Below are positions 20,112-23,184 of a stretch of 49,521 bases of DNA, in pieces (the stretch's first letter is position 1; each line of letters opens with the position of its first letter). The position numbers and the translations under genes are program-made. The DNA comes from Synechococcales cyanobacterium GL140_1_metabat_312 (GTDB lineage Bacteria; Cyanobacteriota; Cyanobacteriia; Leptolyngbyales; Leptolyngbyaceae), in contig JANXWB010000013.1 of NCBI GenBank assembly GCA_025351345.1, forward strand, positions 1 through 49,521, read 5' to 3'. Under the pieces are notes generated by a model that was given only the letters and a program-made list of their open reading frames with translations, had not been told where the DNA came from and did not search any database.

Positions 20112-20339
20112 ATGCAGGGCAAACCATTAATCGGTGAACTAGATGGCTATTACAGTCTTCGTGCAGTTGGACAAAAATATCGAATCATTTACACGATCGA
20201 GCAAACTCAAGTCACTGTAATGATTGTAGCGTTGGAAATTCGGAAAGATGGCAGTAAACAGGGTGTATATGCTCTTGCCAAAAAGCTATTGAGATTAGGG
20301 CTGCTAGACGAATCAGATGAGAATCGAAATGATGGTTAA
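20073..20339 (+). pseudogene. RelE-type toxin lacking its N-terminus
   Basis: The frame encodes DRIDKLKEPPEMQGKPL, GYYSLRAVGQKYRIIY, EIRKDGSK and YALAKKLLRLGLL, the middle and end of a RelE/ParE-superfamily mRNA-interferase toxin. The first 30 or so residues expected before DRIDKL are absent. Upstream, the sequence switches straight from antitoxin-like coding to toxin-like coding at GGCGATCGT (20076-20084). The only ATG is at 20112, inside the domain, without a ribosome binding site. The residues around YRIIY are kept, so a 75-residue product could be made, but it would lack the first helix. I judge it inactive. Confidence 0.7.
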
Positions 20340-20361
20340 AATCCAGAATTAGAGAATGGAA

Positions 20362-20428
20362 TTTTGGGTATTCGGAAGTGCTAGAAAAAGCGATCGCTAT
20401 TCCTGTGAGTCGTGAGTTATGGGCGATC
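20362..20428 (+). repeat. Left copy of imperfect direct repeat flanking higBA
   Basis: It begins TTTTGGGTAT and contains GAAGTG, then GCGATCGCTATTCCTGTGAG, then TCGT and GGCGATCG. The same order of blocks recurs at 21001-21086, on the other side of the HigBA genes. The last bases overlap the beginning of the higB frame. Confidence 0.5.
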
Positions 20429-20661
20429 GTGTCAAAGAATTTCAGGGCTTTGAAAGACAAGCATACAAACGTCTAGAAATTCTAGAAGCCGCATCTAATA
20501 AAGAATCCTTAATGGCTTTGCAAAGCAACCGTTTTGAAGCACTAGGCGGAGATAGAAAAGGGCAGTACAGCATCTGCATAAATGACAAGTGGCGTATTTA
20601 TTCTGAGTGGACAGAAACAGAAAGTCATCCATTTAACATCGAAATTATCGATTATTATTAA
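20419..20661 (+). pseudogene. higB: HigB-type toxin, probably 5'-truncated
   Basis: An 80-residue frame carries the HigB/plasmid-maintenance-killer pattern: RVKEFQGFERQAYKRLEIL, NRFEALGGDRKGQYSI, INDKWRIYSEW and NIEIIDYY. Intact HigB of this type has about 15 more N-terminal residues that form the first strand. Here the frame begins at MGDRVKE with a stop just upstream and no ribosome binding site. As in the RelE remnant, homology starts at a GGCGATCGT core. The C-terminal catalytic region (WRI near the end) is intact, so residual activity cannot be ruled out. It is followed 15 bp later by a broken higA. Confidence 0.65.
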
Positions 20662-20676
20662 AGGAAAAAAACAACT

Positions 20677-20991
20677 ATGACAAGACCTGCAATTCACCCT
20701 GGCGAAATCTTAGCTGATGAACTGGAAGAACTTGAAATGAGTGCATCAGAACTAGCGCGATCGCTCCATATCCCCACAAATCGGATTACGCAAATTCTCA
20801 AAGGGTAACGAGGTATCACGGCTGACACGGCACTACGTCTAGGACGATGGTTTGGCACTGGTGCAGAACTATGGCTTAATTTGCAAAAAACTTATGAGTT
20901 ACGCCTAGCCGAAGAGTTGGCGGGAGAAGAAATTCAAAAAATGATTCAACCTCGTTCATCTATAAACAATCAGCCGTTAGTTCAAGTTTAG
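20677..20991 (+). pseudogene. higA: HigA-type antitoxin with an in-frame nonsense codon
   Basis: The ATG at 20677 has AAGGA 12 bases upstream and opens TRPAIHPGEILADELEE, the standard HigA start, then a helix-turn-helix (SASELARSLHIPTNRITQI). The frame stops at TAA 20806-20808 (LKG-stop-RGITADTALRLG). Relatives have Asn or Gln there, so a single change such as CAA to TAA explains it. The frame then resumes without shift to TAG 20989-20991, with WFGTGAELWLNLQKTYELR intact. The 43-residue product would lack half of the DNA-binding domain. Confidence 0.8.
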
Positions 20992-21000
20992 ATAGATAAA

Positions 21001-21086
21001 TTTTGGGTATAGGGAATGCGATCGCTGTTTGATTTTTTTGAAGTGGCGATCACTATTTCTATGAGTCGTAATTTTTAGGCCATCGC
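21001..21086 (+). repeat. Right copy of imperfect direct repeat flanking higBA
   Basis: It starts with the same TTTTGGGTAT and GCGATCGCT blocks as the left copy. Then come GAAGTG, GCGATCACTATTTCTATGAG, TCGT and GGCCATCG. The two copies differ by spacing and scattered substitutions. The spacer continues to the ATPase gene at 21208 without any other gene. Confidence 0.5.
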
Positions 21087-21207
21087 TTTGATGCTCTCAG
21101 TTGTAAAATTGGCGCGATCGCTGATTCTGTTGTTTTGTTTGTGGCAGACGCAGACATATTCGGCTAGAATTTACCAAGACGATTAGTATTGGTAAGGAAA
21201 TTCTATT

Positions 21208-22452
21208 TTGTCAAACCCAGATTCCAACACAAATCAGCCTCGCCTATTATCATTCACCCTTGACGGTTGGCCTGTTTTAGGTGGTCGAATTACTGTGTCT
21301 TTACACGATGGTGTTGCAGTATTGGTTGGTCTCAATGGTGCTGGCAAATCTTCTGTTATTGAGGGATTCGAGGCGATTTCTTTGTATGCAATTGGTAAGA
21401 TTAATCGAGTGAGGCAAAATGATGATGACAGTATTCCCAAAATATTAGAACTCGAAGTTTTAACTCCGACTGTTCGTCTGCTTAAGTATAATTATGAACT
21501 CATAACTCTAAGTAGTTCAGTTGAAGAGCTAAATTTTGAGGATTCTCCAGATGATAAATTAGATGAAAGTCAATTTTCTTGTAATGCTTGTTGCCAGTAT
21601 GCTGATGGAGCAAAAGAGTTAGTGTGGACAACCGAATATGGAATGACAACTTTCCATAATTTCCATAATATGGATAGCAGCATAACTAATGTTGTTGGAA
21701 GTACGAACGTAATCCGAAGATCTACCAGCTTAAAAACTTCACGGTTCGAGATCCCAGATGAAATGCAGTGGCTTTATTCTGCCTTAAATGAAGTTCATAT
21801 AATGGGAAAAACATCTGTTCGTAAAACCTCTAGGAGACGACTTTCACAACTAAGGGTATCACGTAAAGGTATAGCTTCTAGTTCGTTTGATCTGGTAGAT
21901 AGTCTGGCTCAAAAAATATTTCGTCGTATGGGAAAGAAAGAAATTAATGAGCTTGAAGCCATTTGTCAGAGAATTGGACTCGGCAGAAATATAACTATAC
22001 AAAAGTTTGTTTTAAGTATAGATACTAAAGAAACATTTGAGGATGAAAGCAATGAATATATTTCCTCAGTATTGCTTGATGGAGTCAATATTGGGTTGCT
22101 TTCTGATGGAACTCTGCGAGTCTTATCGATACTTATGGAATTACTTGTCTCTTCTCCTAGTTCAACAATAATAATTGAAGAGCCTGAAACACAAGTTCAT
22201 CCAGCGATGCTAGCAAAGCTACTCAATGAAATTGAAACTTATACATACGGTCAAAATTTAATTATTTCCACACATTCTCCACAAGTGGTCTCATGGGCTA
22301 GCCCAGAACAAATTAATCTAGTTCATCGCAAGGAAGGGCAAACATTTGTTCATAAGTTAGGTAAAGATGATATCCATAATGTCATTGAATATCTGTCTGA
22401 AGAAGGCGACTTAGGAGAATGGATTTATAGTGGTATTCTTGATGATGAGTAA
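21208..22452 (+). CDS. OLD/AAA-type ATPase of a putative two-gene defence unit
   Basis: This is a 414-residue soluble ATPase of the SMC/ABC-like AAA_15/AAA_21 group. Walker A GLNGAGKSS is at 41-49. The domain is split by an insert of about 200 residues that likely forms the arm. The C-terminal half has the signature-like LLSDGTLRVLSILMELL, Walker B IIIEEPETQVHP (about 318-331) and the H-loop STHSPQV. It lacks its own TOPRIM domain, unlike GajA and OLD. The start is a TTG at 21208 with AAGGA about ten bases before it. It overlaps the next gene by a few bases, so translation is coupled. By analogy to RloA/RloB and other ATPase-plus-nuclease pairs, it probably controls the partner nuclease. The exact substrate is unknown. 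Confidence 0.85.
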   Translation: MSNPDSNTNQPRLLSFTLDGWPVLGGRITVSLHDGVAVLVGLNGAGKSSVIEGFEAISLYAIGKINRVRQNDDDSIPKILELEVLTPTVRLLKYNYELITLSSSVEELNFEDSPDDKLDESQFSCNACCQYADGAKELVWTTEYGMTTFHNFHNMDSSITNVVGSTNVIRRSTSLKTSRFEIPDEMQWLYSALNEVHIMGKTSVRKTSRRRLSQLRVSRKGIASSSFDLVDSLAQKIFRRMGKKEINELEAICQRIGLGRNITIQKFVLSIDTKETFEDESNEYISSVLLDGVNIGLLSDGTLRVLSILMELLVSSPSSTIIIEEPETQVHPAMLAKLLNEIETYTYGQNLIISTHSPQVVSWASPEQINLVHRKEGQTFVHKLGKDDIHNVIEYLSEEGDLGEWIYSGILDDE

Positions 22453-23020
22453 TATTAAGATCGCCTTAATTGCTGAGGACGAAACAGACTGTGCAGCAAT
22501 TCGCAAAATTGTTCATCGTGTCATTGGGGCAGAAGCTGCAACCAAAAAATGGGCTTCTAAGGGTTGTAGTACATTAAGGAAAAAGCTAACAGCACAGCTA
22601 AAAGTCCTCTCCAGCCAAGGTTGTAACATTTTTATTGTCGTTCATGATTTGGATCGTAATCCTCAGAATGGTTCCCTTAACGATGAACCAGCATTGCGTT
22701 CAAAGTTGGAGGTATTGTCGTCTGAAGTTAAAATTCATAATAAACATATTTGTATTCCCATTGAAGAATTAGAAGCTTGGTTCTGGTCAGACCCTGATGT
22801 ACTTGAATATCTTGGAGGAGAAAAAGGTAAAGCACATGTAAATCCTGACCGAATTAAATGCCCAAAAGAAGAGCTAATGAAATTATCTATTGGAAAAAAT
22901 AGAAAGCCTCGCTACAGTACCAACATGAATGTTGAATTAGCAGCTAGGCTAAATCTAGATTTATGTTCTAAACGGTGTTCTTCATTTAGAGATCTAGTCA
23001 ATTTTTTGCGAGCGCTCTAA
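22445..23020 (+). CDS. DUF4276-like TOPRIM-fold protein, partner of the ATPase
   Basis: From the ATG at 22445 this is a 191-residue protein; a GTG at 22430 and an ATG at 22442 are alternatives. The start overlaps the ATPase stop by eight bases. TOPRIM-like features are a Glu after the first strand (IALIAEDETDCAAI, Glu11 or Glu13) and an acidic pair in VVHDLDRN (Asp68 and Asp70). ELEAWFW near residue 107 is the signature that marks DUF4276. These residues could bind metal for nuclease or primase-like chemistry; activity is inferred, not known. The tight coupling to an OLD-like ATPase and the setting next to toxin-antitoxin remnants suggest an anti-phage or anti-plasmid function. Confidence 0.8.
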   Translation: MSNIKIALIAEDETDCAAIRKIVHRVIGAEAATKKWASKGCSTLRKKLTAQLKVLSSQGCNIFIVVHDLDRNPQNGSLNDEPALRSKLEVLSSEVKIHNKHICIPIEELEAWFWSDPDVLEYLGGEKGKAHVNPDRIKCPKEELMKLSIGKNRKPRYSTNMNVELAARLNLDLCSKRCSSFRDLVNFLRAL

Positions 23021-23184
23021 AAATATCGATAATATGTAACCTGAAAGGATTGCGATCGCTGTAAGACTCATCGCGTTGACCTTCTGAATTTTAGTTTCTC
23101 TGTTATGAAGGCTCGGAAACCCGATGGTCAAAGACTAAACCATATAATTGCCTCCACCATTCAATCTTAAATATTAAAATTCAA

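Follow-up and report, generated by a model that had tools for sequence, protein, structure and literature searches.

The gene pair and its conserved motifs

The window (the whole stretch of DNA analysed, 49,521 nucleotides of contig JANXWB010000013.1 in the cyanobacterial assembly GCA_025351345.1) contains two overlapping genes on the plus strand. Gene A (21208..22452) codes for an ATPase of 414 amino acids and gene D (22445..23020) for a DUF4276 protein of 191 amino acids. An earlier note on this DNA had proposed that the two form an OLD-like ATPase with a tightly coupled TOPRIM-like partner. The motifs, the 8-base overlap, the predicted fold and the near-constant pairing bear this out, and the pair is almost certainly a split OLD ATPase plus TOPRIM-like partner. 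An antiphage role of the pair is quite probable. Probabilities are expressed in words throughout; they are our judgement and were not computed.

Gene A starts with TTG, is preceded by the ribosome-binding site AAGGA (21194..21198, plus strand) and ends with the stop codon TAA (22450-22452). TTG was found at the start position in 16 of 24 aligned ATPase genes, with AAGGA ahead of it in 12 of the 24. The TTG start with a ribosome-binding site given in the earlier note was confirmed. The Pfam match to AAA_21 was strong (1.1e-20, 75.4 bits against a cut-off of 27), and AAA_15 also exceeded its cut-off (34.5 bits).

Motifs were counted in 39 aligned ATPases and 39 D proteins. In Walker A (residues 41-48, 21328..21351), G41, N43, G44, G46 and K47 were present in 39/39 ATPases and S48 in 38/39. 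The signature-like motif SDGTLR (residues 299-304, 22102..22119) had G301 in 39/39 and S299, D300, T302 and L303 in 37-38 of 39. In the Walker B region with EEPE (residues 320-327, 22165..22188), E325, P326 and E327 were invariant (39/39); the HP that follows was kept almost as well (P332 39/39, H331 38/39). The H-loop region THS (residues 355-357, 22270..22278) had T355 in 37/39, H356 in 26/39 (glutamine in 13/39) and S357 in 38/39. The ATP-binding motifs that the earlier note had described for A are intact, and all but the H-loop histidine are invariant or almost so in the alignment.

The predicted model of A had a mean predicted local distance difference test score (pLDDT) of 76.2, with low-confidence stretches at residues 1-7, 103-120, 153-158, 174-178, 271-280 and 399-414. 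It matched the solved heads of SMC (Z 18.8), PtuA (18.2), Rad50 (17.6) and AriA (16.6). The VIA-align ranking put the SMC head first and PtuA second, and the top Foldseek match was PtuA of retron Ec78 (E 8.5e-11). Because the model matches these heads, A is, by its predicted structure, an OLD/SMC-type ABC ATPase.

A and D overlap by 8 bases, ATGAGTAA (22445..22452), which hold the stop codon of A and the start codon of D, as the earlier note had described in general terms. The start of D is most probably the ATG at 22445, because at least 90% of 26 sequences keep the corresponding methionine (M6 of a longer frame). The GTG at 22430, which opens the longer frame, was dropped, as the conserved methionine is the one at 22445. 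The residue numbers Glu11, Asp68 and Asp70 used previously agree with this start. D matched DUF4276 (PF14103) with 5.4e-9 and 37.0 bits against a curated cut-off of 30.2; a match to DUF3226 remained under its cut-off. It shared 45-84% identity with the close family and 16-28% with the remaining 17 rows of the alignment.

The conserved acids of D lie in three motifs on the plus strand. The first (residues 11-15, 22475..22489) comprises E11 (39/39) and an acid, D or E, at position 15 (37/39). The DxD motif (D68 and D70, 22646..22654) has D68 in 39/39; position 70 is D in 24/39 and Y in 15/39. The ExE motif (E108 and E110, 22766..22774) has E108 in 38/39 (D in the other) and E110 in 39/39. The model of D had a pLDDT of 85.7 and a predicted template modelling score of 0.84, and strands and helices alternate in it as in TOPRIM. 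In this model, E11 ends strand 1, D68 and D70 end strand 3, and E108 and E110 open a helix (residues 106-114) following strand 4. This predicted placement is that of TOPRIM enzymes.

The 24 DUF4276 rows with DxD include the window, and every one of the 15 rows with DxY is a canonical Pfam-type member. L008 and L059, which do not belong to the close family, have D at position 70 too. The split raises the question whether both branches cut alike; they may differ in catalysis.

In BpOLD, the class 2 OLD nuclease of Burkholderia, E400, D455 and D457 bind metal A; E508, together with E404 and T506, binds metal B (PMC6755086). The acids E11, D15, D68, D70, E108 and E110 of D occur in the BpOLD order, and the +4, DxD and x+2 spacings are equal. 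In the comparison of structures, Burkholderia OLD (6nk8) aligned through its C-terminal region with the D model over 160 residues (Z 7.6), and the class 2 OLD of Xanthomonas (6njw) likewise over 153 residues (Z 7.1). The alignment of 6nk8 starts with its residue 391 on residue 2 of the D model, so that E11 would fall on E400 of BpOLD if the strand is ungapped.

Several results weigh against reading D as TOPRIM-like. The Z scores of the OLD C-terminal regions were 6.9-7.6, values that widespread arrangements also reach, and other folds stood above them in the list: Argonaute chains reached 9.1 over 112-113 residues, lumazine synthase 8.2 over 97 residues and the hypothetical protein 2p62 7.9 over 165 residues. 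Foldseek with the D model gave no significant match (best E 0.049). The sequence profile of D found no TOPRIM among solved structures and a single chance match, to S100-A9 (E 0.2). The structural likeness to TOPRIM is thus suggestive, not conclusive. D is read as TOPRIM-like because its conserved acids match the order and spacing in BpOLD; this was the deciding point.

Near-constant pairing and horizontal spread

All 23 close loci have a homologue of A upstream of D (one of them, L031, is truncated in both genes). The 30 best-scoring PF14103 loci were taken from 386 cyanobacterial genomes, and in 28 of them an open reading frame (ORF) of a homologous ATPase adjoined D (E <1e-5). The remaining two have ATPase fragments. 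In L052, two opposite-strand ORFs lie between fragment and D, and in L056 the fragment is cut to 97 residues. Among 198 genomes of another phylum, to which L030 belongs, the ATPase partner was present in 8/8 loci, 7 of which exceeded the DUF4276 cut-off. Some genomes recur between the locus sets (L003/L011, L005/L017, L007/L029 and L030/L101). Pairing of A and D is close to universal in the sampled loci. The neighbours of DUF4276 proved to be ATPases here, and the possibility raised earlier that they might be metabolic genes did not materialise. L031 (3-901) is a natural relic that has kept the beginning of A and the end of D and lost what lay between them.

The occurrence of the pair is patchy. 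Among the 386 cyanobacterial genomes, D itself was matched in 8 and PF14103 in 81. Of the 23 closest loci outside the window's own genome, 22 were cyanobacterial records. The same-genus genome G386 (99% complete) lacks D, while its DAGK-like (diacylglycerol-kinase-like) protein and topA end are 92% and 94% identical to those of the window, where these two genes flank the pair. In G388, D is present at 60% identity, on a contig other than that of the DAGK-like gene; it was not found in G387 (69% complete). The evidence for an empty site in G386 is incomplete, because both flanks ran into contig ends there.

The guanine-plus-cytosine (GC) content of A and D is 0.37-0.38, and three neighbouring genes have 0.46-0.53. 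HIP1 is a cyanobacterial mark, and the 27 HIP1 sites in the window, together with its closest loci, show that this DNA is cyanobacterial. No HIP1 site lies between those at 21114 and 23052, and hence none in A or D. DNA homology to L014, the locus of the closest ATPase relative (90.8% over the match), ends at 21095 and 23030; other relatives share DNA from about 21045 to 23056. From these limits, the travelling unit is about 2 kb and has its own leader. Taken together, the low GC content, the unrelated flanks and the absence from the sister genome make the A-D cassette look acquired. A scan for promoters and terminators gave results at chance level.

Decayed toxin-antitoxin genes span 20112-20991 of the window, ahead of the pair. 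They comprise a RelE/ParE-like piece (20112-20339, under the Pfam cut-offs), a HigB-like ORF (20419-20661, 35.4 bits against 27 in Pfam) and, from 20677, a HigA-like frame (labelled by eye) that an in-frame stop interrupts. The toxin-antitoxin remnants noted beside the pair are thus present. Two short intergenic elements were also seen. The one at 20339-20429 had 15 partial matches in G386; the one at 20977-21089 had 3 and also occurs some kb from the pair in L025-L028. In the Pseudanabaena-group genomes, the pairs of L014, L025, L026, L027 and L028 all have one and the same ABC-transporter gene nearby, up to about 6 kb away (judged by shared ORF starts), and the vicinity of this gene is a possible insertion hot spot.

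The PADLOC and Pfam scans of neighbours covered 130 ORFs at 18 close loci; the other five of the 23 (L018, L020, L022, L026 and L028) were dropped as near-duplicates. Families were considered for the best 25 of 100 and the best 25 of 176, and 10 proteins, one of them from L018, were examined singly. Defence neighbours may therefore be undercounted. Defence-type neighbours were found in at least 4 of the 18 loci: GmrSD and a type IIG enzyme at L011, DrmA at L031, an SNF2 helicase at L021 and AbiEi at L030. A defence island is only modestly supported: in the window, the pair has topA and the DAGK-like gene on its two sides.

One intact pair was found on a viral contig (L092 2797-6819, IMGVR_UViG_3300044900_000004); it is 65% identical to the window pair. 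The order there is a transposase gene, the A-D pair, a TerS-like ORF (labelled by eye, no PHROGs match) and a large terminase gene (phrog_38, 5.7e-105). The adjoining 18.8 kb hold 23 ORFs, and 10 of these were scanned. They included an endolysin-like protein, a sigma factor and a homing endonuclease, further ORFs with weaker matches (one to BstA, 9e-6) and three without a match; no capsid or tail protein was among these 10. By analogy with OLD and PARIS, which are carried in this way, the L092 pair is possibly cargo of a phage or phage relic.

Several of these observations speak against an antiphage role. The neighbours in the close loci were mostly ordinary-looking genes. D had no match in 72,556 plasmid and 50,697 phage records, it was found on one contig only among the viral contigs of IMG/VR, and scanning viral contigs with A gave none. 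Moreover, the archaeal OLD-family enzyme Cran1 acts in the cell cycle and did not confer protection (PMC12796447).

An unlikely alternative to antiphage defence is a toxin-antitoxin-like maintenance module, in which D would be a toxic nuclease restrained by A at the expense of ATP and the pair would be kept for stability. The remnants adjoining the pair, the overlap of the two genes and the PemK-type toxins among the relatives' neighbours (4 of 130 proteins) would fit. In the closest analogue that has been tested, PARIS, removing either gene caused no toxicity and defence was lost (PMC9122126). The absence of D from the searched plasmid records also argues against such a module, and the exchange of the middle of A (next section) is easier to explain by target recognition. 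Still less probable is a pair for nucleic-acid maintenance or repair, with a Rad50/RecF-like ATPase, a nuclease and no part in defence. It draws on the model of A, which is as near to SMC and Rad50 as to PtuA and AriA, and on Cran1 as an OLD-type enzyme. The patchy presence of D, with 8 of 386 genomes and none in G386, the unrelated flanks and the exchanged middle speak against it. Antiphage defence is the preferred reading.

Apparent exchange of the middle of the ATPase

The middle of A, from about residue 60 to 318 (21385..22161, plus strand), appears to have been exchanged between relatives, as judged from change-points, conflicting trees and the nucleotide identity profile. Its breaks were estimated at 21364-21400 and 22159-22164. 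In the 23 close rows, mean identity was 75% in the first 60 residues of A, 49% in residues 66-290 and 70% in the C-terminus of A plus D.

Two pairs of loci, with similar breakpoints, illustrate the exchange. The nucleotide identity of L012 and L014 runs 90-59-91%, with the best breaks at residues 65 and 318 of A, and that of L027 and L028 runs 94-64-95%, with breaks at residues 53 and 319. The change-point likelihood gains were 134 and 146; the largest in 40 shuffles each were 13 and 10, where the shuffles test uneven identity and not recombination as such. The pairs share no row. Nevertheless, they may not represent two independent events, because the middles of L012 and L027 are of one kind. 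Between the window and L014, identity is 98% as far as residue 330 of A and 83% beyond it.

The trees included 23 close rows, without the canonical HEC-01 members. Left out of them were L031 (truncated), L008 and L030 (distant), L091, L017 and L022 (near L006/L020), and the repeats L001, L003, L005 and L007. The tree of the middle grouped L012 with L027 (support 100/100) and the window with L013 and L014 (100/100). The tree of the C-terminus plus D grouped L012 with L014 (100/99) and L025-L028 with one another (100/100). Approximately unbiased (AU) tests rejected the swapped groupings (p 8e-39, 0.005, 3e-8 and 0.003), which were named after the trees had been seen.

That the middle has merely evolved faster, with no exchange of modules, is very unlikely: it is indeed more variable than both ends, and the shuffles address uneven identity, but the two trees conflict with full support, the AU tests (with groups named afterwards) reject the swaps, and rates alone would not place the middle of L012 nearest L027 and its C-terminal part nearest L014. 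On the simplest reading, the segment between Walker A and Walker B is replaced by recombination that uses the conserved ends on either side, and these ATP-binding ends and the nuclease stay together. The exchange appears to be new here; earlier reports of it were looked for in a limited way.

The chimaeras found in nature suggest that it is the middle of the ATPase that recognises the phage. Tentatively, we regard the middle as an exchangeable sensor, a receptor for a phage cue that would recombine among cyanobacteria and leave the predicted nuclease and its docking surface untouched. With the same reserve, this might be compared to the swapping of target-recognition domains in type I restriction systems.

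Proposed mechanism and known systems

We propose a PARIS-like sensor plus TOPRIM effector with an antiphage function, and consider this mechanism as a whole likely. A, an ABC-class ATPase, would act as sensor and scaffold of a split OLD-type system, and D would be a two-metal TOPRIM nuclease kept inactive or delivered by A. A phage cue, presumably read by the variable middle of A, would alter its ATP state, and D would then be freed or switched on. As the active nuclease and effector, D would cut nucleic acid: tRNA, as AriB does (PMC12409363), or DNA, as OLD does (PMC6755086). The cutting would halt the infection, and the cell would probably be sacrificed. For abortive infection by tRNA or DNA cutting, we see about an even chance.

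The proposal that this is an undescribed system did not hold. AAA-DUF4276 pairs are already contained in PADLOC as the candidate HEC-01, and four canonical pairs were recovered with both genes: L033 (ATPase 1.8e-142, partner 2.9e-77), L049 (6.1e-157 and 1.8e-80), L059 (2.5e-170 and 1e-96) and L061 (1.4e-72 and 6.8e-19). HEC-01 was assigned by E-value and adjacency, not by PADLOC's own score and coverage cut-offs. The best PADLOC match of A in the window was HEC-01A (7e-23, with the best stretch spanning only residues 297-394), and that of D was HEC-01B (2.6e-12, residues 6-154 of the longer frame). At L030 the best matches were AriA (1.1e-23) and HEC-01B (4.6e-10). As the best matches of the window pair are to HEC-01 but far weaker than those of the four canonical pairs, it is filed, on profile similarity, as a divergent HEC-01-like outlier.

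HEC stands for Hma-embedded candidate, and several HECs, including HEC-06, showed antiviral activity (PMC12988326). HEC-01 was not mentioned in that paper or in the other literature searched, and a literature search for DUF4276 found no paper. The proposed mechanism, an OLD-type sensor with a two-metal TOPRIM effector, would apply to the widespread DUF4276/HEC-01 pairs, which were found only as a profile-based candidate.

Split pairs of OLD ATPase and TOPRIM have also been published. PARIS consists of the ATPase AriA and the TOPRIM protein AriB as a defence module (PMC9122126), AbiL and MADS are further modules of OLD ATPase and TOPRIM (PMC12409363), OLD-ABC/TOPRIM dyads occur in BREX-type loci (PMC12839542), and class 4 OLD adds an OLD ATPase plus TOPRIM to the defence modules (PMC10568477; PMC12796447).

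The window pair shares its functions with several of these systems and differs from most of them in the partner or the layout. In Septu and retrons, the partner PtuB is an HNH nuclease. PtuA is the top Foldseek match of A, but the partner here is DUF4276, and no HNH family was among the PADLOC, NCBIfam and Pfam matches of D; membership in Septu was rejected on this ground. Class 1 and 2 OLD proteins and GajA of Gabija have the same two functions in one chain, whereas the window has two genes, and these systems were ruled out accordingly. Moreover, no helicase gene follows the pair as in Gabija; the next gene is the DAGK-like gene on the other strand.

MADS gave weak PADLOC matches (A to mad3 2.3e-16, D to mad4 2.1e-7). 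The NCBIfam scores were far under the cut-offs for Mad3 (57.7 against 420 bits) and Mad4 (15.8 against 160 bits), which excluded membership. The nearest intact genes of the window pair are topA and the DAGK-like gene.

PARIS is similar in that both are split into an OLD-type ATPase and a TOPRIM-type partner (predicted here) in adjacent genes, and A matched the AriA profile with 8.8e-21. An AAA_15/AAA_21 ATPase beside an effector, the rule given for PARIS in PMC9122126, is what A provides. The effector there is DUF4435/AriB; the partner here is DUF4276. DUF4435 was absent from the Pfam matches of D, and no AriB was among its 15 PADLOC matches. PARIS was ruled out by the partner. With HEC-01, the window pair has the two-gene layout in common. 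D of the window keeps DxD, and the DxY form is confined to canonical members.

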